Positions 2,598 to 13,160 of a stretch of DNA of 13,274 nt are shown piece by piece. The stretch comes from Dactylosporangium sp. AC04546 (GTDB lineage Bacteria; Actinomycetota; Actinomycetes; Mycobacteriales; Micromonosporaceae). The stretch spans positions 1 through 13,274 of the forward strand of contig NZ_JAHYSG010000191.1 in the NCBI RefSeq assembly GCF_022095675.1. Direction: 5' to 3'. The position numbers were made by a program, and so were the translations under genes. Under the pieces are notes generated by a model, which worked only from the letters and a program-made list of their open reading frames with translations, did not search any database and was not told where the DNA came from. Position 1 is the first letter of the stretch, and the number at the start of each line of letters is the position of its first letter.

Positions 2598-3920
2598 TTG
2601 AGTGACGTGACGCTCCTGACCACGGCCGCGGGGCTGGTCGTGCTCGCGGGCCTGTTCGCGATGACCGACTCGGCGCTCAACGTGGTCTCGCCGGCGCGTG
2701 CCCACGAGCTGGCCCGGGAGGGCCGGCCCGGCGCCAACGCGCTGCAGGTGATCGCGGCCGATCCCGCGCGGTACATCAACCTCCTGCTCCTGCTGCGGCT
2801 GCTCTGTGAGCTGACCGCGACCACGCTGGTCGCCCTGGTGACGGCCGCGGCCGTCGGCGGTGACCGCGACTGGCTGGCCGCGCTGATCACCGCGGCGTCG
2901 ATGACCGTCGTCAGCTTCGTCGTGGTCGGCGTCGCCCCGCGCACGATGGGCCGCCAGCACGCCTACAACGTGGCCCGCTTCGCCGCGCCCCTCGTGCGCT
3001 GGCTCGGCACCGCGCTGGGCCCGCTGGCCCGCCTGCTGATCCTCATCGGTAACGCGGTGACGCCCGGCAAGGGCTACCGCGAGGGCCCCTTCGCGACCAC
3101 GATCGAGCTGCGCGAGCTGGTCGACCTGGCCGAGCAGCGGGGCGTCGTCGAGCACGGCGAGCGCGAGATGATCCACTCGGTGTTCGCGCTCGGCACGACG
3201 ATCGCCCGTGAGGTCATGGTCCCGCGCACCGAGATGGTGTGGATCGAGGCCCACAAGACCGTCCGCCAGGCGATGATGCTCGCGATGCGCAGCGGCTTCT
3301 CCCGCATCCCGGTCGTCGGGGAGAACGTCGACGACGTGCTCGGCATCGTGTACCTCAAGGACCTCGTGCGCCGCACCGCCGGCGACGACGCCGGCGCCGC
3401 CGAGATGCCGGTCGCCCAGGTGATGCGCAACGCCACCTTCGTGCCCGAGTCGAAGCCGGTCGACGACCTCCTGCGCGAGATGCAGGCGGCCCGGGTGCAC
3501 ATGGCGATCATCATCGACGAGTACGGCGGTACCGCCGGCCTCGTCACGATCGAGGACATCCTCGAGGAGATCGTCGGCGAGATCACCGACGAGTACGACG
3601 TGGGCGAGCGCCCGCCCGTCGAGGAGCTCCCCGACGGCGCGGTCCGGGTCACCAGCCGCCTGCCGATCGAGGACCTGGGCGAGCTGTTCGGCGTCGAGCT
3701 GCCCGCCGACGAGGTCGAGACCGTGGCCGGCCTGCTGGCCCAGGCCCTCGGCCGGGTCCCGATCCCGGGTGCCACGGCGGTGGTGGGCGGCCTGGTCCTG
3801 GTGGCCGAGGGCACGGCCGGCCGCCGCAACCGCATCGACACCCTCCTCGTCCGGCGCGCCGAGCCCGAGGACGAGGACGCGGACACCCCCGAGAACGAGA
3901 GGCAGCACGCCGATGCCTGA
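2598..3920 (+). CDS. CNNM/CorC (HlyC/CorC, YbeX-like) membrane protein with CBS pair
   Basis: This is a 440-residue membrane protein of the hemolysin C/CorC family, associated with Mg2+/Co2+ efflux or homeostasis. The N-terminal DUF21/CNNM transmembrane domain covers about residues 1-165, with hydrophobic segments near 5-24, 60-87, 93-113 and 128-153. Two CBS domains follow, about 200-258 (starting at EVMVPRTEMVW) and 275-330 (containing IIIDEYGGTAGLVTIEDILE at 304-323). The C-terminal CorC_HlyC/transporter-associated domain runs about 345-420 and ends in an acidic tail (EPEDEDADTPENE). The start is TTG 2598, four bases after the ybeY stop, with no strong Shine-Dalgarno; GTG 2607 is an alternative that would shorten the protein by three residues. 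E. coli YbeX corresponds to the soluble part only, in the ybeZYX operon. The last 8 bases overlap the next gene. Confidence 0.93.
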   Translation: MSDVTLLTTAAGLVVLAGLFAMTDSALNVVSPARAHELAREGRPGANALQVIAADPARYINLLLLLRLLCELTATTLVALVTAAAVGGDRDWLAALITAASMTVVSFVVVGVAPRTMGRQHAYNVARFAAPLVRWLGTALGPLARLLILIGNAVTPGKGYREGPFATTIELRELVDLAEQRGVVEHGEREMIHSVFALGTTIAREVMVPRTEMVWIEAHKTVRQAMMLAMRSGFSRIPVVGENVDDVLGIVYLKDLVRRTAGDDAGAAEMPVAQVMRNATFVPESKPVDDLLREMQAARVHMAIIIDEYGGTAGLVTIEDILEEIVGEITDEYDVGERPPVEELPDGAVRVTSRLPIEDLGELFGVELPADEVETVAGLLAQALGRVPIPGATAVVGGLVLVAEGTAGRRNRIDTLLVRRAEPEDEDADTPENERQHADA

Positions 3921-4251
3921 CCTGTCTGCCGAGGACACGAAGCTCGTGACGCTGGCCCGGGCGGCCCGGGCCCGCATCGGGGCCGTCGAGGGCGCCGCGG
4001 TGCGCGACGGCGACGGCCGCACGTACAACGCGGCCTCCGTCGCCCTCCCGTCCCTCTCGCTGACGGCCCTGCAGCTCGCGGTCGCCAGCGCGGTGGCCTC
4101 GGGCGCCACGAAGCTGGAGGCCGCGGCGGTGGTGACGGAGGCGTCGTCCCTGGACGGCCAGGGTCACGCGGCCGTCCGCGACGTCTCCCCGGCGGCCCCG
4201 ATCCACCTCGCCGCCCCCGACGCCACGGTCTTCGCCACCGTCACCGACTGA
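3913..4251 (+). CDS. Cytidine-deaminase-fold protein lacking the catalytic zinc site
   Basis: This small protein (112 residues) matches the first two thirds of cytidine deaminases. GAAVRDGDGRTYNAASV (27-43) followed by SLSLTALQLAVASAVASG (47-64) aligns with the usual DGR-Y-G-N ... L-T-C-A-E-R-x-A-I block. The key residues are absent: where cytidine deaminases have CAE or HAE (ligand plus catalytic Glu) this protein reads ALQ at residues 52-54, and no PCGxCRQ motif exists downstream. It is therefore probably not a deaminase, although such genes are often annotated as one. M. tuberculosis has, as I recall, a similar small protein (Rv2365c) between its corC-like gene and era, which suggests a conserved non-catalytic role in this neighbourhood. 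ATG 3913 overlaps the corC end by 8 bases. The 3' end overlaps the convergent flavodoxin-fold gene by 11 bases. Confidence 0.83.
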   Translation: MPDLSAEDTKLVTLARAARARIGAVEGAAVRDGDGRTYNAASVALPSLSLTALQLAVASAVASGATKLEAAAVVTEASSLDGQGHAAVRDVSPAAPIHLAAPDATVFATVTD

Positions 4252-4771
4252 CGGCGGCCAGGCTGCCCGTCCAGCGCGCGGCCAGCAGCCGCAGGCGGTC
4301 GCCGAACGACTCGGCGGCCGCCAGGTCGGCCGGCTCGGTCGCGCCGTCGGCGGACTGGGTCATCAGGCCCAGGTAGGCGCCGAGCCGGTTCTCCGCCACG
4401 GAGCCCAGCCCGAGTGGCGCCCACTGCATGCCGTGCTGCGCGGCGAACTGCGCCAGGTACTGCAGCGTGGCCAGCTTGTCGCCGTTCAGCGAGCCCGAGT
4501 TGGTGAAGCCCGCAGCCAGTTTGTCCTGCCAGGAGCGGTTTGCGTAGATGCCCGACGAGGCGTCCGCGAACGCCTTGAAGGGTGCGCTCGGGCCGCCCAT
4601 GTACGTCGGGCAGCCGAAGACCACCGCGTCGGCCGCGTCCAGCAGCGACCAGCCCTCCGCGTCGATCGTGTCCACCCGCAGCAGGTCCGCACCGGCCCCG
4701 GAGGCCACGGCCCGGGCCACGCGTTCGGTGTTGCCGTAGCCGCTGTGGAACGCCACCACGATGCTCGTCAT
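4241..4771 (-). CDS. Flavodoxin-fold NAD(P)H-dependent oxidoreductase (WrbA-like)
   Basis: This 176-residue single-domain protein has a flavodoxin fold. The FMN phosphate-binding loop is at residues 9-15 (HSGYGNT), preceded by a hydrophobic strand (SIVVAF). A second flavin loop follows AVVFGCPTYMGGPS (49-62), and AGFTNSGS (87-94) is the third cofactor-contacting strand and loop. These are hallmarks of the flavodoxin/NAD(P)H:quinone oxidoreductase (WrbA, NADPH-FMN reductase) group, so reduction of quinones or other electrophiles using FMN is likely; the substrate cannot be read from sequence. ATG 4771 has AGGGG 8 bases upstream; the longer open frame upstream runs through the divergent promoter and is rejected. 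The gene is divergent from a MarR regulator 63 bases away, the classic arrangement for a regulator controlling a detoxifying oxidoreductase. Confidence 0.88.
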   Translation of the reverse strand: MTSIVVAFHSGYGNTERVARAVASGAGADLLRVDTIDAEGWSLLDAADAVVFGCPTYMGGPSAPFKAFADASSGIYANRSWQDKLAAGFTNSGSLNGDKLATLQYLAQFAAQHGMQWAPLGLGSVAENRLGAYLGLMTQSADGATEPADLAAAESFGDRLRLLAARWTGSLAAVSR

Positions 4772-4779
4772 GCCAATAT

Positions 4780-4784
4780 CCCCT
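4780..4784 (-). promoter_or_regulatory. Ribosome binding site of the flavodoxin-fold gene
   Basis: On the minus strand AGGGG lies 8 bases before ATG 4771, inside the longer purine run GAGAGGGG (4780-4787). It fixes the start. Confidence 0.65.
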
Positions 4785-4787
4785 CTC

Positions 4788-4807
4788 GAAAAGCTTTTCT
4801 GAAAGCT
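4788..4807. promoter_or_regulatory. Candidate MarR operator (palindrome)
   Basis: GAAAAGCTTTTC (4788-4799) is a perfect 12-base palindrome. It overlaps a second inverted repeat, AGCTTT (4792-4797) with AAAGCT (4802-4807). It is the most AT-rich spot in the surrounding 2 kb and sits between two divergent genes, one encoding a MarR protein. Its size and symmetry suit a winged-helix dimer. It would cover the -10 side of the leftward promoter and the -35 of the rightward one, so binding could repress both genes. Binding itself is an inference. Confidence 0.55.
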
Positions 4808-4827
4808 ATCACGGCAGGGTTTAGGCT
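4799..4827 (+). promoter_or_regulatory. Candidate promoter of the marR-aminotransferase pair
   Basis: CTGAAA (4799-4804), 17 bases, then TAGGCT (4822-4827) gives a plausible rightward promoter whose -10 ends 7 bases before GTG 4835. Transcription would then begin at or next to the start codon (a leaderless mRNA), which would explain the missing Shine-Dalgarno site. It overlaps the leftward promoter back to back. Confidence 0.4.
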
Positions 4828-4831
4828 TCAA
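4803..4831 (-). promoter_or_regulatory. Candidate promoter of the flavodoxin-fold gene
   Basis: On the minus strand TTGAAG (4831-4826), a 17-base spacer and TAGCTT (4808-4803) make a good fit to a housekeeping sigma-70/HrdB promoter. Initiation would fall near 4796, inside the palindrome, leaving a leader of about 25 bases that carries the AGGGG site. Confidence 0.45.
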
Positions 4832-4834
4832 CCC

Positions 4835-4882
4835 GTGGCAAGGGACGTGGCAAGGGACGCGGCAAGGGACGCGGGAAGGGAC
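4835..4882 (+). repeat. Four tandem copies of a 12-base repeat at the marR start
   Basis: GTGGCAAGGGAC, GTGGCAAGGGAC, GCGGCAAGGGAC and GCGGGAAGGGAC follow one another exactly. They encode VARD-VARD-AARD-AGRD (first codon read as Met at initiation). Copies 1 and 2 each contain a possible GTG start, and every copy contains AAGGGA. Copy number may vary between strains and could shift the start or the N-terminal length. Confidence 0.85.
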
Positions 4883-5380
4883 CAGGTCGACCGCATCGTC
4901 GAGGAGTGGCGGCGGCAGTTGCCCGACACCGTGTCGCCGGCGATGGGCCTGGGCAAGCGCATCCACCGGCTGGCCGGGCGGCTGCAGGAGGCGGTCCGCA
5001 ACGAGACCGCGGCCCTCGGGCTGACGAGCGCCGACTTCGACGTGCTGTCGGCGCTGCGGCGGGCGGGGGAGCCCTACGCGATGAAGCCGTCTGCGCTCGC
5101 CAGCGGCCTGCTGCTGACCTCCGGCGGGATCAGCAACGTGCTGCGGCGTCTCCAGCAGGACGGGCTGATCGAGCGGGAGGCCGACGCCGCCGACGCGCGG
5201 GTCGCCTGGGTGCGGCTGAGCCCCAAGGGCGTCACGGTCGCCGAGAAGGTCGTCCGGGCGGTCACCGGCGCCCAGGAGCGGATCTTCAGCGCCGCGACCG
5301 AGGCGCAGGTCACCGAGGCGGCCGACGGGCTGCGTGCCATCCTGATCGCACTGGGCGACCGAGCGGACGGGGACGACTGA
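4835..5380 (+). CDS. MarR family transcriptional regulator
   Basis: This is a 181-residue winged-helix regulator if GTG 4835 is the start. The MarR domain spans about residues 33-170: dimerisation helix (MGLGKRIHRLAGRLQEAV), then LGLTSADFDVLSALRRAG (61-78), the recognition-helix region LLLTSGGISNVLRRLQQDGLIER (92-114), and the wing ADAADARVAWVRLSPKG (116-132). The DxR of the wing is present as Asp-Ala-Arg. The stretch RDQVDRIVEEWRRQLP before the domain is common in actinobacterial MarR proteins, so the start must lie upstream of it. GTG 4835 and GTG 4847 are the candidates; 4835 fits a leaderless transcript. The first 16 residues are four copies of a (V/A)xRD tetrad encoded by a 12-base tandem repeat. 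It probably controls the divergent oxidoreductase and the aminotransferase 2 bases downstream. Its ligand is unknown. Confidence 0.9.
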   Translation: MARDVARDAARDAGRDQVDRIVEEWRRQLPDTVSPAMGLGKRIHRLAGRLQEAVRNETAALGLTSADFDVLSALRRAGEPYAMKPSALASGLLLTSGGISNVLRRLQQDGLIEREADAADARVAWVRLSPKGVTVAEKVVRAVTGAQERIFSAATEAQVTEAADGLRAILIALGDRADGDD

Positions 5381-5382
5381 GC

Positions 5383-6273
5383 ATGCTGCAGCGCTACGAC
5401 GAGCGCAACGCCGACCTGCGCTACTGGGTGAACGGGACGCTCCGGCACCGCGACGAGCCGGGCATCTCGCCGTTCGACTCGGTGGTGCAGGGCGGGGACG
5501 CCGTCTGGGAGGGGCTGCGGCTCTACGACGGCGGCATCTACGGGCTCGAGGCGCACCTCGCTCGGCTGCGCCGCTCGGCCGTCGCGCTCGGCTTCGCGGC
5601 GATCCCGGCCGACGACGAGATCGTGGCGGCGCTCCAGGCGACCCTGCGCGCCAACGGCATGCGCGACGGCGTCCACGTCAGGCTGACCCTGACCCGCGGG
5701 GTCAAGGTCACCAGCGGCATGGACCCGCGGCTCAACCGGGCGGGCTGCACGCTCATCGTCCTGGCCGAGCACAAGGCCCCGGTGTACGACACGAGCGGGC
5801 TCACGCTCGTCACCAGCAGCGTCCGGCGGCCCGGCCCCGACGTGCTCGACCCGAAGATCCACCACAACAACCTGCTGAACTCGATCCTGGCCAAGATGGA
5901 GGCCAACGTCGCCGGCGCCGACGACGCGCTCATGCTCGACGCGCGCGGGTTCGTGGCCGAGACGAACGCGACCCACCTCTTCGCCGTCGCCGGCGACGCG
6001 CTCGTCACGCCGCGCGCGGTCGCCTGCCCGGAGGGCGTCACGCGCGACACCGTGCTGCGCATCGCGCCCTACCCGGTCGAGGTCCGCGACGTCACCCAGG
6101 TCGAGATGTACACCGCCGACGAGGTCTTCTGCACCGGCACCATGGGCGAGATCGCGGGCGTGACCCGGATCGACGGCCGCCCGATCGGCACCGGCGAGGT
6201 CGGCCCGGTGACCCGCAAGATCGCCGAGTTGTACCGCGAGCACGCCCGAGCGAACGCCACGCGGGTCATCTGA
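5383..6273 (+). CDS. PLP-dependent class IV aminotransferase (BCAT/D-amino acid aminotransferase-like)
   Basis: This 296-residue fold-type IV PLP enzyme belongs to the branched-chain aminotransferase/D-amino acid aminotransferase/aminodeoxychorismate lyase superfamily. Lys158 in LDPKIHHNN is the expected Schiff-base lysine, Glu193 in GFVAETNATHLF (189-200) the residue facing the pyridine nitrogen, and TGTMGEIAGV (251-260) the phosphate-binding loop. The N-terminal YWVNG and GISPFDSVVQGGDAVWEGL (27-45) are also typical. Transamination is likely, but the substrate cannot be fixed; it lacks the length and motifs of housekeeping IlvE, so I give no symbol. ATG 5383 lies 2 bases after the marR stop with GGGGA 9 bases upstream, indicating co-transcription. 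It overlaps the convergent sulfotransferase-like gene by 8 bases, and that neighbour may be its functional partner. Confidence 0.9.
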   Translation: MLQRYDERNADLRYWVNGTLRHRDEPGISPFDSVVQGGDAVWEGLRLYDGGIYGLEAHLARLRRSAVALGFAAIPADDEIVAALQATLRANGMRDGVHVRLTLTRGVKVTSGMDPRLNRAGCTLIVLAEHKAPVYDTSGLTLVTSSVRRPGPDVLDPKIHHNNLLNSILAKMEANVAGADDALMLDARGFVAETNATHLFAVAGDALVTPRAVACPEGVTRDTVLRIAPYPVEVRDVTQVEMYTADEVFCTGTMGEIAGVTRIDGRPIGTGEVGPVTRKIAELYREHARANATRVI

Positions 6274-6985
6274 TGCGGTGCCCCGCGAGCTCGTCGTAGA
6301 GCGGGAGCGCCGCGGCGACCAGTGCGGACAGCCGCGGCGGCACCACCGGTGGGGTGGGGTCGTACGGGGCGAAGCCCGTGGAGGCCTCGACCGCCGCGTA
6401 CCAGTGCGGGGCCCACACCCCGTCCGTGTCGCGCCGCCCCGGCGCCCATGACAGCATCGCCGGATCCCACGGGAGCCCGAGCGCCGCGCACAGCCGCGGC
6501 AGCACCGCGTCCGGCGCCCGCAGCACGTCCGCGGCGTCGACCACCGGCCCGGGGTACCGCCGGAAGATCGACACCTGCTGCGGGAAGCCCAGGTCCTCGA
6601 GGGTGGGCTCGCCCCGGACCTTCGAGTAGGAGGCGACCACGCTCGCGGGGTGGCGGATGAGGTACGCGTTGGTGACCTCCCCCAGCCAGTCGAGCCCGAT
6701 CTGCGGCAGCAGGTGGTGGGTCATGTGCTTCTGGTACTGCAGGGTGACGCCCGGGGGCAGCGGCGCCAGCAGATCATCGATCGCGGCACGCCAGTCGGCG
6801 GGCTGCGACGCGAGGATCTCGGTGCGGCCCGGGTGGTCGAGGCCCGTCGCGGAGAGGTAGTGCGCATAGAGCGGCTCGTCGACGACGGCGGCGCCGGGCC
6901 GTGCGCCGAAGCTGCGCATCATGGCCGTCGAGATGTTGCGGGGGCCGGACCACATGGCGACGCGCACGAAGAGAGGGTAACCCAT
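6266..6985 (-). CDS. P-loop sulfotransferase-like protein
   Basis: This 239-residue P-loop protein is of the sulfotransferase superfamily. MWSGPRNISTAMMRSF (11-26) matches the 5'-phosphosulfate-binding loop, VVDEPLYAHYLSATGLDHPG (34-53) is characteristic of a distinct subfamily, KHM (86-88) supplies a basic residue, and LIRHPASVVASYSK (109-122) matches the 3'-phosphate-binding motif with Arg111 and Ser119. TDGVWAPHWYAAVEASTGF (187-205) is another subfamily signature. As I recall, plant BCAT-like proteins carry this same domain fused in front of a class IV aminotransferase, so its convergent overlap with one here is notable. Sulfate transfer has not, to my knowledge, been shown for the subfamily. 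The start at 6985 has no Shine-Dalgarno; a GTG seven codons in or Met11 are alternatives, the latter leaving the P-loop intact. Confidence 0.8.
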   Translation of the reverse strand: MGYPLFVRVAMWSGPRNISTAMMRSFGARPGAAVVDEPLYAHYLSATGLDHPGRTEILASQPADWRAAIDDLLAPLPPGVTLQYQKHMTHHLLPQIGLDWLGEVTNAYLIRHPASVVASYSKVRGEPTLEDLGFPQQVSIFRRYPGPVVDAADVLRAPDAVLPRLCAALGLPWDPAMLSWAPGRRDTDGVWAPHWYAAVEASTGFAPYDPTPPVVPPRLSALVAAALPLYDELAGHRIR

Positions 6986-7009
6986 GTGGTGGTACGCCCG
7001 TTTTAAGAC

Positions 7010-7018
7010 CGTATAGCA
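7010..7018 (-). promoter_or_regulatory. Possible extended -10 promoter for the sulfotransferase-like gene
   Basis: On the minus strand TGCTATACG reads as an extended -10 (TGN then TATACG) in a short AT-rich patch (7000-7024) between two divergent genes. Initiation would be near 7002, leaving a leader of about 17 bases. No -35 match is seen, and the same patch could serve the divergent ATPase gene. Confidence 0.3.
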
Positions 7019-7144
7019 CGAAATCCTGGCGCGCGTCGATGCGAATCACTCGGCGTCGTGGCGCTTACTGTCGAGGGCGGAGCCCTGCAGTGCGCCCGCC
7101 CCGCCACCAGGCTTTCTGGAAACCGACGTCGGGTGATGCTGCGC

Positions 7145-7157
7145 GGGAAGGAAGGGG
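7145..7157 (+). promoter_or_regulatory. Ribosome binding site of the FtsK/SpoIIIE-like gene
   Basis: The purine run GGGAAGGAAGGGG ends 7 bases before ATG 7165. It sets this start against the longer in-frame opening that reaches back into the sulfotransferase-like gene. Confidence 0.7.
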
Positions 7158-7164
7158 CCGGTCG

Positions 7165-10100
7165 ATGGACCTGCTGATCGACGTGCGAGTGGCGCGACGG
7201 GACTCGACGGTGGCCCTGGACCGCACGGTCCGGGTCCGTACCGATCCCGCCGGCTCCGTGACCGAGCTGATCACCGCGTTCCTGGGCTCGCTCGACCCGG
7301 CCGACCGCCCCCAGCAGACCACCTGGGCCTGGCTGGAGCGCACCGGGCAGCGGCTCGACCCGGCCAGACCCGTCGGCGAGCAGGGCCTGCGCTGCGGCGA
7401 CGTCCTGCTGCTCGGCCCGCCGGAGCAGCCGCCGGTCCCGCCGCCGACCGGCGAGCACCGCTTCGAGTTGCTCGTCGTCGCCGGGCCGGACGCGGGCGCC
7501 TGGCTGCCGCTGCCGCCGGGCGAGTTCGTCGTCGGCACCGACCCGGGCGGCGACCTGGTGCTCGACGACCCGGCCGCCGGCCGCCGGCACCTGCACCTGG
7601 GCATCGGCAGCCACGAGGTGGCCGCGACCGACCTGCGCTCGCCGGCCGGCACCCGGATCGACGGGGAGCCGCTGGCCGGGACCGTGACCCTGTCCGGGGG
7701 CCAGCTGCTGCGCCTCGGCGGCACGCTCATCGCCGTGGAGGAGGTGCCGGCCGATCCGTCGGTGCCGGCCGGGCCGCCGCCTGCGGTGTGGCTGCCGGCG
7801 GTACCGCAGCCCCAGAAGAAGCGACGGTTCCGCCGCAACCACGCCGATCCGGCGGTCGAGTTCGCCGCGGCCATGGACCGGGCCGAGGTCGACGCGGCGG
7901 TGAAGCACCGCTCGGTCGTGCGCGCCCGGCGGGCCGAGCTGCCGAGCCTGGCCCACCTCGTCCGGGCCGCCGAGCGGCGCGAGGCGCCGCCCCGCCGCCC
8001 CGACGACCGGGACTTCCTCGTGCTGCGGCTCGGGACCGCCGACCGCCCCAGCCGGCTGCGCTTCGAGCAGGCGGCGACCAGTGGCGACTTCGACCCCGCG
8101 CACACCGACCGGATCACCGCGCTGCGCGAGCGGTACGCCACCGATCCCGACGTCCCGGTCGAGGCCGACCTCCGCGCGCTCGGCGCCCTCGGCGCGACCG
8201 GCCCGGGCCGCGACAGCGTCCTGCGCTCGTGGGTCGTCCAGCTCGCGACCCTCGTACGCCCCAACGACCTGGCGCTGGTGGTGCTGTGCGACCCGGAGCG
8301 GGCCGGGCCGTGGGCGTGGACCGGCTGGCTGCCGCACACCCGCACGCTGACCGCCGCGATCGCGCCCGGCGCGCGCACGGTGGCCGCCGAGCCCGAGGAC
8401 CGGGCCCGCGTCCTCGCGCTCGTCGAGGCGCTCCTGCGCCAGCGCCGCCGCGGCCGTCACGCGATCGCCGAGGCGTTCACGCCGCACGTCGTCGTGGTGC
8501 TTCCAGATCCGGAGGCGGTACCGGGGGAGGCCCTGGCCCGGCTGGTCGAGGAGGGCCCGCGGGGCGGGATCAGCCTGCTCGTGGGCGCGCCGACGGCCGG
8601 GGACCTGCCGCCCGGGGTGCCGGCTCGCGAGGGCGACGGGCTGCGCCTCACGGTCGCCGACCGGGTCGCCCGCGCGCTCGCCGCCACCCGCGACGCGGCC
8701 GGCGGCGCGGCCCCGCGGGTCGCCCCGCTGGCCGAGGTGCTCGGGCTGGCCGAGGTCACCCCGAGCGCGATCGTCAAGCGCTGGGTGCCGTCGACCCGCG
8801 ACCGCGGGCTGGCCGCGCCGATCGGGCTCGGCGGCACCGGCCCGGTCACGGTCGACCTGCGCCGCGACGGGCCGCACGGGCTGGTCGTCGGGGTGGCCGG
8901 CTCGGGCCGGTCCTGGCTGCTGCGCTCGTACCTGGCCGCGCTCGCCGCCACGTACCCCGCCAACCGGCTCACGTTCGTGCTCGTGGACGAGCCCGGGGCC
9001 GACACGTTCGCCGAGTGCGCCGGGCTGCCGCACACCGTCGGCGTGTTCGCCGAGACCGACCAGCACCGGGCCCGCCGGGTGCTGATCTCGCTCAACGCCG
9101 AGGTGCGCCGCCGCGAGGCCGTGCTGCGCCGGCACGGCGTGAAGGACATCGGCGAGATGGAGCGCAAGCACCCGGCCGCGGCGCCGGCCAACCTGCTCAT
9201 CGTGGTCGCCGAGTTCGCCACCGCGCCCGAGGAGTTCGTGCCCGGGCTGCGGGAGCTCGCCCGGCGGGGCCGGGCGACCGGGGTACACCTCCTGCTCGCG
9301 ACGGCCAGCCCGCACGGCGTGGTCGACGACGACCTGCGCGCCGAGGCCTCGCTCCGCATCGCCCTGCGGGTCGAGGAGGAGGCCGACAGCCTGGAGGTGC
9401 TGGAGCGTCCCGACGCCGCCCACCTCTCGCCCCTGCTCCCCGGCCGTGCGTTCGTGCGGCTGAGCGGGGGCGAGCCGGAGCCGGTCCAGGTGGCGTACGG
9501 CGGGGTCCGCTCGCCCGCCGGCCGCCGCGCGCTGCCGACCACGATCACCGAGGTCCGCTTCGAGTCCGGCCTCGACGCCGATGCCGGCGCCCCGGTGGCC
9601 GCCGACGGCGACCGCACCGACCTCCAGCGCCTCGCCGAGGCGATCGCCGCCGCGCACCGCGAGGCCCGCGTCCCGGACCAGCCGCGGCCCTGGCAGCCGC
9701 CGCTCGCGCCGACCTACACGCTCGACGCACTGGACGCGGCCCCGGGCGCCTTCACCGCGCCGATCGGCATGGTCGACCTGCCCAACTCGCAGGCCCGCCA
9801 GATCTGGCAGCTCGACCTGGAGGAGCTCGGCCACCTGCTGATCTTCGGCCCGGCCGGCGCGGGCAAGACCACCCTGCTGGACACGATCGCCGCGTCGTTC
9901 CAGCGGTCCTACGACGCCGGGGCGCTGCGGGTGTACCGCATCGGCGGCGAGGAGGCGCTGGAGCTGCTCGCCACGATCGGGAGCCTGGTCCGCGAGCGGG
10001 CGGCGCTCGACGAGCACCACGGCGCCCGGGTCCTGGTGCTCGTCGACGGCCACGACCCGCTGCTCAACGACGCCCTCACCCACGTCGCCGCCGAGGGCAA

Positions 10101-10305
10101 GGCGGTCGGCGTGCACCTGGTGGTGGCCACCGAGCAGCGCAGCGCGGTGCCGACCTCGCTGTCCCGGCTGATGCCCGGAAGGATCGCGCTGCGGTCGGCC
10201 GGGCGGGGCCTCGTGGAGGGCACGATCGAGCTGCAGGTGGCGACGGCGGGGACCACCGTCACGACTCCTGCACAACGCCCCCGCCAGTTGCGCCTGGAAG
10301 TCTGA
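7165..10305 (+). CDS. Soluble ubiquitin-like/FHA/FtsK-SpoIIIE ATPase, EccC/EssC-like
   Basis: This 1046-residue multidomain protein is related to type VII secretion ATPases. Residues 1-85 look like the ubiquitin-like domain of YukD/EccD (ending LDPARPVGEQGLRCGDVLLLG). Residues 98-193 form an FHA-like domain (FVVGTDPGGDLVLDD ... GTRIDG). Residues 280-560 resemble the EccC linker domain (WLPHTRT at 388-394). ATPase domain 1 (about 565-780) has an altered Walker A, GVAGSGRS at 576-583 with Arg for Lys, VDEPGAD at 607-613 instead of VDFKGG, and VAEF at 681-684 instead of VDEF. ATPase domain 2 (about 850-1020) keeps an intact Walker A, GPAGAGKT at 895-902, and a hydrophobic Walker B-like strand ending Asp961. 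No transmembrane helix is visible where EccC/EssC carry theirs (about 200-250). No WXG100, EccB/D/E or mycosin gene is in the window. It may be a cytosolic motor or scaffold; function unknown. Confidence 0.87.
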   Translation: MDLLIDVRVARRDSTVALDRTVRVRTDPAGSVTELITAFLGSLDPADRPQQTTWAWLERTGQRLDPARPVGEQGLRCGDVLLLGPPEQPPVPPPTGEHRFELLVVAGPDAGAWLPLPPGEFVVGTDPGGDLVLDDPAAGRRHLHLGIGSHEVAATDLRSPAGTRIDGEPLAGTVTLSGGQLLRLGGTLIAVEEVPADPSVPAGPPPAVWLPAVPQPQKKRRFRRNHADPAVEFAAAMDRAEVDAAVKHRSVVRARRAELPSLAHLVRAAERREAPPRRPDDRDFLVLRLGTADRPSRLRFEQAATSGDFDPAHTDRITALRERYATDPDVPVEADLRALGALGATGPGRDSVLRSWVVQLATLVRPNDLALVVLCDPERAGPWAWTGWLPHTRTLTAAIAPGARTVAAEPEDRARVLALVEALLRQRRRGRHAIAEAFTPHVVVVLPDPEAVPGEALARLVEEGPRGGISLLVGAPTAGDLPPGVPAREGDGLRLTVADRVARALAATRDAAGGAAPRVAPLAEVLGLAEVTPSAIVKRWVPSTRDRGLAAPIGLGGTGPVTVDLRRDGPHGLVVGVAGSGRSWLLRSYLAALAATYPANRLTFVLVDEPGADTFAECAGLPHTVGVFAETDQHRARRVLISLNAEVRRREAVLRRHGVKDIGEMERKHPAAAPANLLIVVAEFATAPEEFVPGLRELARRGRATGVHLLLATASPHGVVDDDLRAEASLRIALRVEEEADSLEVLERPDAAHLSPLLPGRAFVRLSGGEPEPVQVAYGGVRSPAGRRALPTTITEVRFESGLDADAGAPVAADGDRTDLQRLAEAIAAAHREARVPDQPRPWQPPLAPTYTLDALDAAPGAFTAPIGMVDLPNSQARQIWQLDLEELGHLLIFGPAGAGKTTLLDTIAASFQRSYDAGALRVYRIGGEEALELLATIGSLVRERAALDEHHGARVLVLVDGHDPLLNDALTHVAAEGKAVGVHLVVATEQRSAVPTSLSRLMPGRIALRSAGRGLVEGTIELQVATAGTTVTTPAQRPRQLRLEV

Positions 10306-10320: not shown

Positions 10321-11208
10321 GTGCAGCAGAACTATCGCGCAGGGTTCGCGTGCTTCGTCGGTCGTCCGAACGCGGGCAAGTCGACGCTGACCAACGCGAT
10401 CGTCGGTCAGAAGATCGCGATCACGTCGGCCAAGCCGCAGACCACCCGGCACACCGTGCGTGGCGTCGTCCACCGGCCCGAAGCCCAGCTCGTGCTGGTC
10501 GACACCCCCGGGCTGCACCGGCCCCGGACGCTGCTCGGCGAGCGGCTCAACGATCTGGTCCGCTCGACCTGGAGCGAGGTCGACGTCATCGGCCTGTGCC
10601 TGCCGGCCGACGAGGAGATCGGGCGGGGTGACCGGTTCATCAGCGGCGAGATCGCCGAGCTGAAGGCCACCCTGGTCGCCGTGGTCACCAAGACCGACCT
10701 GGTCGACCGGGCGACCCTCGCGCAGCGGCTGCTCGCGGTGCAGGAGCTGGGCGAGTTCGCCGACATCGTGCCGGTGAGCGCGGTGTCGGGGGAGCAGGTG
10801 GGCACGCTGGTCGACGTCATGATCGGCCACCTGCCGCAGTCGCCGCAGCTGTACCCCGACGACATGCTCACCGACGAGCCCGAGCACGTGCTGATGGCCG
10901 AGCTGATCCGCGAGGCCGCGCTGGAGGGCGTGCGCGACGAGCTGCCGCACTCGATCGCGGTGCTGGTCGAGGAGGTGCTCGTCGAGGACTCCGGCCTGAC
11001 CAAGATCTACGCCGACATCTACGTCGAGCGGTCGAGCCAGAAGGCCATCGTCATCGGCCACCAGGCGAGCCGGCTCAAGGACGTCGGCACCCGCGCGCGG
11101 CGCGCCATCGAGGACCTCGTCGGCGGCCGTGTCTACCTCGACCTGCACGTCCGGGTGGCCAAGGACTGGCAGCGCGACCCGAAACAGCTGCGCCGCCTGG
11201 GGTTCTAG
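10321..11208 (+). CDS. era: GTPase Era
   Basis: This 295-residue essential-type GTPase binds the 3' end of 16S rRNA and assists 30S assembly. All G motifs are present: G1 GRPNAGKST (14-22), G2 region QTTRHTVRG (40-48), G3 DTPGL (61-65), G4 TKTD (123-126) and G5 VSAVSG (152-157). The C-terminal KH domain follows (about 210-290), with KIYADIYVERSSQKAIVIG and the conserved ending DLHVRVAKDWQRDPKQL. The KH GxxG loop, often GKGG in Era, reads GHQA (246-249). Length is normal. The start GTG 10321 encodes the standard beginning a few residues before G1; with no Shine-Dalgarno, leaderless translation is possible. recO starts at the very next base. In relatives era lies near phoH-ybeY-corC; here it is 6 kb away. 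Confidence 0.97.
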   Translation: MQQNYRAGFACFVGRPNAGKSTLTNAIVGQKIAITSAKPQTTRHTVRGVVHRPEAQLVLVDTPGLHRPRTLLGERLNDLVRSTWSEVDVIGLCLPADEEIGRGDRFISGEIAELKATLVAVVTKTDLVDRATLAQRLLAVQELGEFADIVPVSAVSGEQVGTLVDVMIGHLPQSPQLYPDDMLTDEPEHVLMAELIREAALEGVRDELPHSIAVLVEEVLVEDSGLTKIYADIYVERSSQKAIVIGHQASRLKDVGTRARRAIEDLVGGRVYLDLHVRVAKDWQRDPKQLRRLGF

Positions 11209-11985
11209 ATGGCGTTCCGGGGCCGGCTCTATCGGGACGACGCGGTGGTGCTGCGCCTGCAGAAGCTCGGCGAGTCCGACCGGATCGTGACGCTGTTCAC
11301 CCGGCACCACGGGCGGATCCGGGCGGTGGCCAAGGGCGTGCGGCGCACGACGTCGAAGTTCGGCGGGCGGCTCGAGCCGTTCGGCCACGTCGACGTGCAG
11401 CTCATGGAGGGCCGGTCGCTCGACGTGATCAGCCAGGTCGAGGGCGTGGACCTGTTCGGGCGGCGGCTCATGGACGACTACCCGCGGTACACGGTGGCCA
11501 GCGCCATCGCCGAGACGGCCGAGCGGCTCACGCCCATCGAACAGGAGCCGTCGCTCAAGCTGTACCTCCTGACGCTCGGGGCGATGCGCGCCCTGGCCCT
11601 GCGCGAGCACGCGAGCAGCCTGGTCCTCGACGCGTACCTGCTGCGCGCGATGGGCGCCGCCGGCTGGGCGCCCGCGCTGCGTGAGTGCGCGGTCTGCGGT
11701 ACCCAGGGCCCGCACCGCGCCTTCTCGGTCCCGGCCGGCGGCGCCGTCTGCCCGGACTGCCGCCCGCCCGGTGCCGGCCACCCGGCACCTGCGACGATCG
11801 AGCTGATGGCGGCCCTGGCGGAGGGCGACTGGCCGGCCGCCGACGCGAGCGAGCCGGTGTTCCGCCGTGAGGCGAGCGGCCTGGTCGCCGCACACCTGCA
11901 GTGGCACCTGGAACGCGCGCTACGCTCGCTTCCGCTGGTCGACCGTGACGACACCGCGCGAATCCGGAAGGACACCGCTTCGTGA
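11209..11985 (+). CDS. recO: DNA repair protein RecO
   Basis: This 258-residue RecO acts in RecFOR-type recombinational repair, where RecO with RecR loads RecA onto SSB-coated single-stranded DNA. The N-terminal OB-fold covers about residues 4-80 (YRDDAVVLRLQKLGESDRIV at 8-27, then GRIRAVAKGVRR). A helical domain follows with an intact zinc finger, CAVC (160-163) and CPDC (181-184), present in many but not all RecO proteins. ATG 11209 directly abuts the era TAG with no spacer, and the 3' end overlaps uppS by four bases (GTGA), so translation of era, recO and uppS is likely coupled. No unusual residues are seen in the conserved regions. Confidence 0.96.
   Translation: MAFRGRLYRDDAVVLRLQKLGESDRIVTLFTRHHGRIRAVAKGVRRTTSKFGGRLEPFGHVDVQLMEGRSLDVISQVEGVDLFGRRLMDDYPRYTVASAIAETAERLTPIEQEPSLKLYLLTLGAMRALALREHASSLVLDAYLLRAMGAAGWAPALRECAVCGTQGPHRAFSVPAGGAVCPDCRPPGAGHPAPATIELMAALAEGDWPAADASEPVFRREASGLVAAHLQWHLERALRSLPLVDRDDTARIRKDTAS
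11966..11972 (+). promoter_or_regulatory. Ribosome binding site of uppS
   Basis: GGAAGGA inside the end of recO lies 9 bases before GTG 11982. It supports this start, which overlaps the recO stop. Confidence 0.6.
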
Positions 11986-12782
11986 GCAAAGGCACTTTCC
12001 GTCCGCCGTCGCAGCACCCGAGCGGTGCGCGCCCGCCCGCGCTGCCCAAGGAGGCGATCCCGCAGCACGTGGCGATCATCATGGACGGCAACGGTCGCTG
12101 GGCGAAGCAGCGCGGCCTGCCCCGCACGGCCGGCCACACCGCCGGCGAGGCGGCCCTCTTCGACGTGATCGAGGGTGCGCTGGAGCTCGGCGTGAAGTAC
12201 GTCTCGGCGTACGCCTTCTCGACGGAGAACTGGAAGCGCTCCCCGGAAGAGGTCCGCTTCCTCATGAACTTCAACCGCGACACGATCCACCGCCGCCGCG
12301 ACGAGTTCCACGAGATGGGCATCCGGGTCCGCTGGGCGGGCCGCCGCCCGCGCCTGTGGCGCTCGGTGATCCACGAGCTGGAGTACGCCGAGCAGCTCAC
12401 CCGCCACAACGACAAGCTCACGTTCACGATGTGCGTCAACTACGGCGGCCGGGCCGAGGTCGCGGACGCGGCGGCCCGCATCGCCGCGGACGTGGCCGCG
12501 GGCAAACTGAAGGCGGACCGGGTCTCGGAGAAGACGTTCGCCCGTTACCTGGACGAACCGGACCTTCCGGACGTCGACCTGATGATCCGCAGTTCGGGCG
12601 AGATGCGGACGTCGAACTTCATGATCTGGCAGGCGGCGTACGCCGAGTTCGTCTCGATCGACACACTGTGGCCCGACTTCGACCGCCGTCACTTGTGGTA
12701 CGCCTGCGAGGTCTACGCGAAGCGCGACCGCCGCTTCGGCGGCGCCATCCCGAACCCGGTCGTACCGACCCTGACCTCGTAG
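11982..12782 (+). CDS. uppS: Polyprenyl diphosphate synthase, cis-type (isoprenyl transferase)
   Basis: This 266-residue cis-prenyltransferase extends an allylic diphosphate with isopentenyl diphosphate to make the C50-C55 lipid carrier precursor for peptidoglycan and arabinogalactan-type glycans. HVAIIMDGNGRWAKQRG spans residues 29-45, with Asp35 the catalytic Mg2+-binding residue. YAFSTENWKRSPEEV and FTMCVNYGGRAE are standard, and LMIRSSGEMRTSNFMIWQAAYAEF contains the RxSGE and SNF(M)(I)WQ motifs that bind the homoallylic diphosphate. The MIRVRWAGRRPRLW-type segment and its place after era-recO match M. tuberculosis Rv2361c, a decaprenyl diphosphate synthase, so a long-chain product is likely; C50 or C55 cannot be decided from sequence. 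The first 25 residues are a polar, family-variable extension. It is the last gene of the run; repeats follow its stop. Confidence 0.95.
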   Translation: MSKGTFRPPSQHPSGARPPALPKEAIPQHVAIIMDGNGRWAKQRGLPRTAGHTAGEAALFDVIEGALELGVKYVSAYAFSTENWKRSPEEVRFLMNFNRDTIHRRRDEFHEMGIRVRWAGRRPRLWRSVIHELEYAEQLTRHNDKLTFTMCVNYGGRAEVADAAARIAADVAAGKLKADRVSEKTFARYLDEPDLPDVDLMIRSSGEMRTSNFMIWQAAYAEFVSIDTLWPDFDRRHLWYACEVYAKRDRRFGGAIPNPVVPTLTS

Positions 12783-12803: not shown

Positions 12804-12918
12804 CGTTTGGGCTGGGCTTCGCGGGTTAGGTCTGGGCTTTTGCGCGTTGGGCTTGGCTTCGCGTGTTGGGCTGAGCTTCGCGGTTTGGGTCCGGCCTCGG
12901 CGTTTGGGTCCGGCCTCG
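12804..12918. repeat. Repeat array A: six degenerate ~19-base tandem units
   Basis: Six units of 18-21 bases share the pattern GTTTGGGCTGGGCTTCGC with drift. The last two share an identical 17-base core, GTTTGGGTCCGGCCTCG, at 12883-12899 and 12902-12918. The array begins just after the uppS stop. Drift increases across the array, as expected of an old slippage-derived minisatellite. Confidence 0.75.
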
Positions 12919-12947
12919 CGAGTCGCCGCCCCCGCGCGCCGTCTGCG

Positions 12948-13160
12948 CCGCGTCCGTCCGCGCCTCCCGCGTCCGTCTCGCGCTTTCCGGCTCGCGCCTT
13001 CCGCCCCGCACCGCGCCCGTCCGCGCCCCCCGCGTCGGTCTCGCGCCTCGCGCTTCCCGGCTCGCGTCTCCCGCCCCGCACCGCGTCCGTCTCGCGCCTT
13101 GCGCCTGCGTCTCGCGCCCCCTCGTGTCCGTCTTGCGCTTCCCGGCTCGCGCCTCCCACT
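12948..13160. repeat. Repeat array B: three long degenerate units of 63-80 bases
   Basis: Three successive units each begin CCGCG(T/C)CCGT and carry TTCCGGCTCGCG or CTTCCCGGCTCGCG near the end: 12948-13010, 13011-13080 and 13081-13160. The first two close with CCGCCCCGCA. Shorter sub-repeats of the type CGTCTCGCGCC recur inside them. The plus strand is strikingly pyrimidine-rich throughout, a strong strand asymmetry. Confidence 0.7.

Follow-up and report, generated by a model that had tools for sequence, protein, structure and literature searches.

A membrane-free, motor-degenerate EccC-like protein with ubiquitin-like and FHA domains, encoded before era in Dactylosporangium

What does a protein do that has the core of an EccC/EssC-like ATPase of type VII secretion (T7SS), carries its own ubiquitin-like (UBL) and FHA domains and has no membrane anchor? 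This question is raised by one gene in a 13,274-nucleotide stretch of DNA from Dactylosporangium sp. AC04546, the whole of which is called the window here. Dactylosporangium are soil bacteria, and the window is 72-93% identical to its nearest named relatives, six Dactylosporangium species. An earlier note on this DNA had suggested a cytosolic ATPase, derived from or parallel to T7SS, with a job other than secretion. We found that the protein has lost the transmembrane (TM) hairpin, D3, part of D2, the catalytic residues of D1 and the FHA phosphothreonine residues, and that its gene has been retained before era. We consider it reasonably likely that the protein is a genus-specific, domesticated and motor-dead soluble scaffold or adaptor, derived from a UBL-FHA-TM-EccC ATPase.

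Features of the locus, in window coordinates:
6266-6985, minus strand: sulfotransferase-like gene, upstream (Pfam, locus comparison)
7165-10305, plus strand: reduced membrane-free UBL-FHA-EccC/EssC-like protein, 1046 residues (open frame, profile matches)
7165-7428, plus strand: ubiquitin-like domain, residues 1-88 (Foldseek; family profile against solved structures)
7456-7743, plus strand: FHA-fold domain, residues 98-193, with T125, G139 and A161 at the canonical R, S and N sites (Pfam, alignment)
7807-7836, plus strand: junction, residues 215-224, site of the TM hairpin in full-length relatives (alignment, Kyte-Doolittle)
7990-8664, plus strand: EccC-type DUF (first NTPase-like domain), residues 276-500 (EccC/EssC profiles, structure matches)
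8752-9504, plus strand: D1 ATPase domain, residues 530-780, catalytic residues degenerate (PF01580; residue counts)
8890-8913, plus strand: D1 Walker A GVAGSGRS, K replaced by R582 (residue counts)
9208-9216, plus strand: D1 Walker B region, AEF in place of DEF, D replaced by A682 (residue counts)
9745-10302, plus strand: shortened D2, residues 861-1046, with no D3 after it (Pfam, alignment)
9847-9870, plus strand: intact D2 Walker A GPAGAGKT (residue counts)
10321-11208, plus strand: era-type GTPase (MMR_HSR1 and KH_2), starting 15 bases past the stop of the gene (Pfam)
11209-11985, plus strand: recO, same apparent operon (scan, locus comparison)
11982-12782, plus strand: uppS-like gene, same apparent operon (order kept in 7/7)

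Domain order and the membrane anchor

The frame is also open 5' of 7165, back to a GTG at 6901; the N-terminus MDLLIDVRV is kept in 7/7 orthologues (MDLLIDVRVT in one), and an open orthologue was present in all seven Dactylosporangium genomes examined. The kinship with T7SS claimed in the earlier note was upheld: the protein has the DUF and D1 homology of a T7SS core ATPase, and its core matched TIGR03928 (3.7e-94) and TIGR03924 (1.2e-73), both under the curated cut-offs. YukB (9qks) was its top sequence match among solved chains, the EccCb1 D2 structure (9jv8) was among its structure matches, and Foldseek ranked 4nh0 first by E-value, with low TM-scores; both structure models were weak. At L041 and L043 an insert lies before the DUF, in the linker after window residue ~272, and that of L043 is repetitive (HGARADLHGTRADLHG-like).

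The fusion of a UBL to the ATPase, which the earlier note had described for one protein, turned out to be common to a wider actinobacterial family of membrane-bound ATPases with the order UBL-FHA-TM-DUF-D1-D2-D3. We sampled this family as 47 full-length loci from 40 genomes, chosen among the better-scoring matches and not at random; an EccC-like locus (L074) and the seven EccC loci of the window's own genome were left out of the 47, and eight further loci entered no count. The Dactylosporangium protein begins in the same way, with a UBL followed by an FHA domain.

Pfam alone gave YukD at E 0.088 for the window UBL, under the cutoff, and at E 0.01 it recognized YukD in 3/47 and ubiquitin in 2/47 of the family N-termini. 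A family profile found the UBL in the window frame at 8e-21 (the window was included in the training set). Against solved structures, this profile matched ISG15 and di-ubiquitin chains at ~2e-7, EccD/Snm4 (7b7j) at 0.0023 and single natural ubiquitin chains at only 0.003-0.004; chains of several ubiquitins reach lower E-values because domain scores sum. YukD was absent among the best 60 structure matches listed. Foldseek, run on an N-terminal model of modest quality (pLDDT 51, block means 65-83 across residues 21-90), found ubiquitin folds for the most part (8tyx: probability 1.00, TMt 0.77, rmsd 2.3), with no match at E ≤0.001 and a best value of 1.1e-3. The profile A5, built from two Dactylosporangium and 25 family rows, gave matches at <1e-5 in 19/22 family members that were not part of it and in 19/29 additional loci from the phylum (small databases). 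The remaining ten of those 29 comprised four misframed loci, two that were cut, one that looked EccC-type, and L208, L211 and L214, for which there was no clear match to the profile. With hhalign, the family UBL matched the EccD UBLs of the same genome at 88% probability (alignments roughly trimmed). The alternative that residues 1-88 are another FHA domain, on the pattern of EssC, was rejected by Foldseek and by the family profile against structures.

The FHA region matched Yop-YscD_cpl (1.5e-12) and FHA (2.8e-5) in Pfam; the presence of UBL and FHA domains on one chain, already read from the bare sequence, was thus borne out for the UBL by the family profile and Foldseek and for the FHA domain by Pfam. 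The phosphothreonine-binding residues R125, S139 and N161 are each absent from all seven orthologues, and all three are retained in 28/47 full-length relatives. The full motif was present in 9/9 relatives with a kinase in the stretch versus 19/38 without one (p 0.0067, relatedness ignored). It is therefore incomplete in 19 of the 38 kinase-free relatives as well, which weakens the case for a scaffold, as this loss is not special to the Dactylosporangium branch. Kinases were counted only when both a kinase domain and a catalytic motif were present, which gave 9/47 full-length loci (eight within 1 kb); BLAST alone gave 16/47, partly through other proteins, such as a neighbour of ~1000 residues at L049 and L071. 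No kinase match was found in the window or at the six other orthologue loci. The kinase linked to the two closest full-length relatives (G021 and G025) was not found in Dactylosporangium: the C-terminal half of the G021-adjacent kinase had no good match in the seven genus genomes (best E 5.1e-6, 118/357 residues).

The absence of a membrane helix, also noted earlier, was confirmed by alignment and by a Kyte-Doolittle scan, our sole TM test. Six window residues (219-224) lie opposite 51-54 residues in 47/47 family members, and the hairpin loss amounts to ~46 residues in 7/7 genomes. Hydropathy at the hairpin site is -0.56 to 0.96 in the seven orthologues (-0.52 in the window) and 1.56-2.98 in the 47 relatives, with at least 1.6 in 46 of them. 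The maximum for the window protein is 0.36 over residues 190-300 and 1.52 overall, the latter within the DUF. Thus the N-terminal TM anchor of a T7SS core ATPase is lacking. In L039 and L040 a stretch within D1 reaches 1.93-2.06, which we took for a core strand.

The motor domains

D1 has lost several residues that are invariant in the 47 full-length relatives. In Walker A, all seven orthologues have arginine at the site of the lysine that is present in 47/47 relatives and 7/7 EccC proteins. Walker B Asp682 is alanine in six of the seven (L042 keeps the aspartate), against aspartate in 47/47 relatives and 7/7 EccC, and both K610 and Q714 are found in 0/7 orthologues versus 47/47 relatives. E683 and D608 are retained in 7/7, and the loop after D608 is variable among orthologues. 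The protein therefore lacks the intact D1 Walker A and B pair of a T7SS core ATPase, as well as the combination of membrane hairpin and active D1 that marks the UBL-FHA-TM-EccC family.

The losses continue towards the C-terminus. The middle piece of D2 is missing, with 45-48 residues in the orthologues opposite 75-113 in the relatives; D3 is absent, with 35-40 residues versus 259-350, so that there is no D1-D2-D3 array. All seven genus orthologues thus lack the hairpin, a portion of D2 and the whole of D3. The D2 Walker A is intact, with a lysine in 7/7 orthologues, while 36/47 full-length relatives have arginine here and 11/47 lysine. Together with the retention of D2 Asp961 in 7/7, this might suggest a working soluble ATPase that uses D2 as its motor to move or remodel a protein that is not secreted. 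We regard this as unlikely, given the shortening of D2 and an acidic motif (VDG) that lacks the Glu found directly after Asp in the D1 of relatives. Moreover, the D2 lysine is shared with the two closest full-length relatives, and it was therefore inherited and not regained. For a scaffold or adaptor, the intact P-loop would have another use: D2 may bind nucleotide and so set the shape or oligomeric state of the protein.

Descent, neighbours and the position before era

The nearest proteins outside the genus are those of G021 (L044) and G025 (L045), with 48-51% identity over the best segments. In our tree the Dactylosporangium clade is sister to these two full-length proteins (100/99; stem 0.71), and the UBL-FHA family is split from seven EccC proteins encoded in the genome of the window (100/100). 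Judged from these sequences, the window protein is a reduced Dactylosporangium branch of the UBL-FHA-TM-EccC family, descended from within it. Of the two origins left open by the earlier note, derivation from T7SS-type ATPases therefore stands, and the tree rejected a cytosolic ATPase that arose in parallel without common descent.

At 33/47 full-length loci the surveyed stretch contains a WXG100-like gene, within 1 kb at 27; PF06013 matched 29 of the 33 best candidates, and the WXG100 profile was iterated on the same loci in which it was counted. EccB, EccD or mycosin gave a BLAST match at 1/47 loci and none at 46/47; the queries were taken from the genome of the window, which makes the positive control (7/7 EccC loci) partly self-matching. 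Flanks of ~7 kb were surveyed, some ending at contig ends, and genes were called with a simple GC3 script, which failed on the low-GC locus L229. Because of the WXG100 neighbours, the few EccB/EccD/mycosin matches and some kinases, the full-length family seems to be the motor of a T7SS-like system that carries the ubiquitin-like subunit in cis. Around the Dactylosporangium gene the picture is different. As the earlier note had said of its surroundings, none of the window's 139 stop-to-stop frames matched the WXG100 profile (best E 0.36) or, by BLAST, EccB, EccD or mycosin. The same single profile found no WXG100 at the six other orthologue loci, and linked WXG100 genes thus number 0/6, with none in the window. 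Homologues therefore do not consistently sit in complete T7SS loci.

Could the protein still act on secretion from elsewhere in the genome? It might modulate the assembly of a resident T7SSa, by joining or titrating EccC rings or EccD UBLs and so tuning secretion. Seven further EccC-type loci occur in the genome, all with one or more EccB/EccD/mycosin matches (the queries came partly from them), and over the matched core their EccC proteins share 32-36% identity with the window protein. The gene is not linked to any T7SSa locus, however, and the tree parts its product from EccC with full support, and we find this role rather improbable. A direct part in a secretion machine, with recruitment to the membrane in trans by a partner, would have a precedent in split EccC systems, where soluble EccCb is recruited in this way, and soluble EccC pieces do exist (9jv8). 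However, EccCb is a D2-D3 pair without DUF and D1, the opposite part to the window protein, which has a DUF and a degenerate D1 and lacks D3. With no WXG100 match in the window or the six other loci, and a full-length sibling unseen in 5/7 genus genomes (G001 and G005 each have one), we give this possibility little credence. The position of the gene speaks for a scaffold or adaptor outside secretion.

In 7/7 genomes the stop codon lies 15 bases ahead of the era start, and the gene, era, recO and uppS stand together. In L042 the phoH-cdd side is inverted and on the other flank, and the gene is still with era (the names phoH, cdd and uppS are those that we take these neighbours to have). Elsewhere in the host's family, 40 other genera had an era match and 29 gave loci, two of them with incomplete stretches; the gene was upstream of era in 0/29, and a cdd-like gene lay ≤1.5 kb upstream of era in 22/29. 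In the window, positions 3913-7165 hold flavodoxin-like, MarR, aminotransferase class IV and sulfotransferase genes, which with the 1046-residue gene stand between the cdd-like gene and era. GC-rich degenerate tandem arrays with periods of 7 to 70 bases occupy 12807-13157, 3' of uppS. The linkage to era suggests shared expression only.

The gene is under purifying selection. Over all 21 orthologue pairs dN/dS was 0.25-0.40 for the whole gene, 0.15-0.37 for D1 despite its degenerate catalytic residues, and 0.08-0.24, lower than for the gene, for era. Constraint along the gene is uneven, since single-pair maxima are as high as 0.87 (UBL), 0.72 (DUF) and 0.99 (linker ahead of D2). A pseudogene was rejected on the constant era spacing and dN/dS. 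That the gene is decaying towards loss, as its many domain and motif losses, long stem branch, variable D1 loop and few domain pairs with high dN/dS might suggest, is highly improbable against open frames in 7/7, this dN/dS, the constant 15-base spacing and its retention in two genomes where the neighbouring sulfotransferase was not found (L039) or is a 144-base remnant (L040).

Proposed role and known systems

The degenerate D1 motor residues and FHA site, the loss of D3 and the position before era in 7/7 go beyond what the earlier note had recognized. Because the protein has no anchor, intact D1 or D3, it is unlikely to be a secretion motor, and it would probably be unable to serve as a pore. 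Because it is conserved and kept by era despite these losses, it has probably been reused for a non-secretion job. We propose that it may act as a soluble scaffold or adaptor in which the UBL, the FHA fold, the DUF and the dead D1 would offer protein-binding surfaces; the constraint on D1 after loss of its catalytic residues suggests that this domain serves in structure or binding. Several observations temper this proposal. E683 and D608 are kept throughout and D682 in L042, and nucleotide binding sometimes survives a Lys to Arg change, which counts against a dead motor. In addition, dN/dS for the gene is above that of era and uneven among domains, and a partner could still tether the protein to a membrane complex.

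If this is correct, the protein is an evolutionary case in which a secretion-type motor lost its anchor, motor residues and signalling site, and was retained; the non-motor functions of the UBL, FHA and DUF modules could then be approached apart from secretion. The family is of the known T7SS type; for the soluble motor-degenerate derivative and for the UBL-ATPase fusion, we found no description in the open-licence literature searched.

How does the protein compare with known systems? It has the domain order of the full-length UBL-FHA-TM-EccC ATPases, and lacks three features that they keep: the TM hairpin, the catalytic residues of D1, and D3. EccC of T7SSa shares its DUF and D1 homology; there, the UBL is on EccD, whereas the window protein has it fused to the ATPase, along with an FHA domain, and has no EccB/EccD/mycosin match nearby. 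EssC/YukB of T7SSb shares an N-terminal FHA domain and the EccC core. EssC has two N-terminal beta-sandwich domains, in the part of its description available to us (PMC4925161), whereas the first domain of the window protein is ubiquitin-like, and YukD/EsaB is separate in T7SSb.

The closest parallel to the full-length family may be T7SSd, for which an FHA-bearing ATPase, a kinase and WXG100 proteins, and no ubiquitin-like protein, are reported in the sections of Garrett et al. that we consulted (PMC11217815). The T7SSd ATPase TsdC is, in those sections, likewise an actinobacterial FHA-bearing membrane ATPase with WXG100, and some family loci have a kinase; the likeness is to the description of TsdC and not to TsdC sequences. 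It is weaker because true kinases number 9/47, not 16/47. At three full-length loci (L049, L052 and L071, the last in Dactylosporangium G001), a WXG100 gene is accompanied by the ~1000-residue neighbour, of one cluster and with Ig/fn3 domains in L071, recalling TsdI of T7SSd; no true kinase was found at these three by domain and catalytic motif. The window protein differs from T7SSd in lacking TM, WXG100 and kinase, and neither kinase nor WXG100 occurs at the six other orthologue loci. The UBL-ATPase fusion may be the reason why T7SSd is reported without a ubiquitin-like gene, and the full-length family offers a testable proposal for that component. Tentatively, both ideas may be joined: a widespread T7SS-like fusion of UBL and motor would explain the gap in T7SSd, and in Dactylosporangium it would have given rise to a soluble, motor-dead, non-secretory scaffold that is co-expressed with Era.
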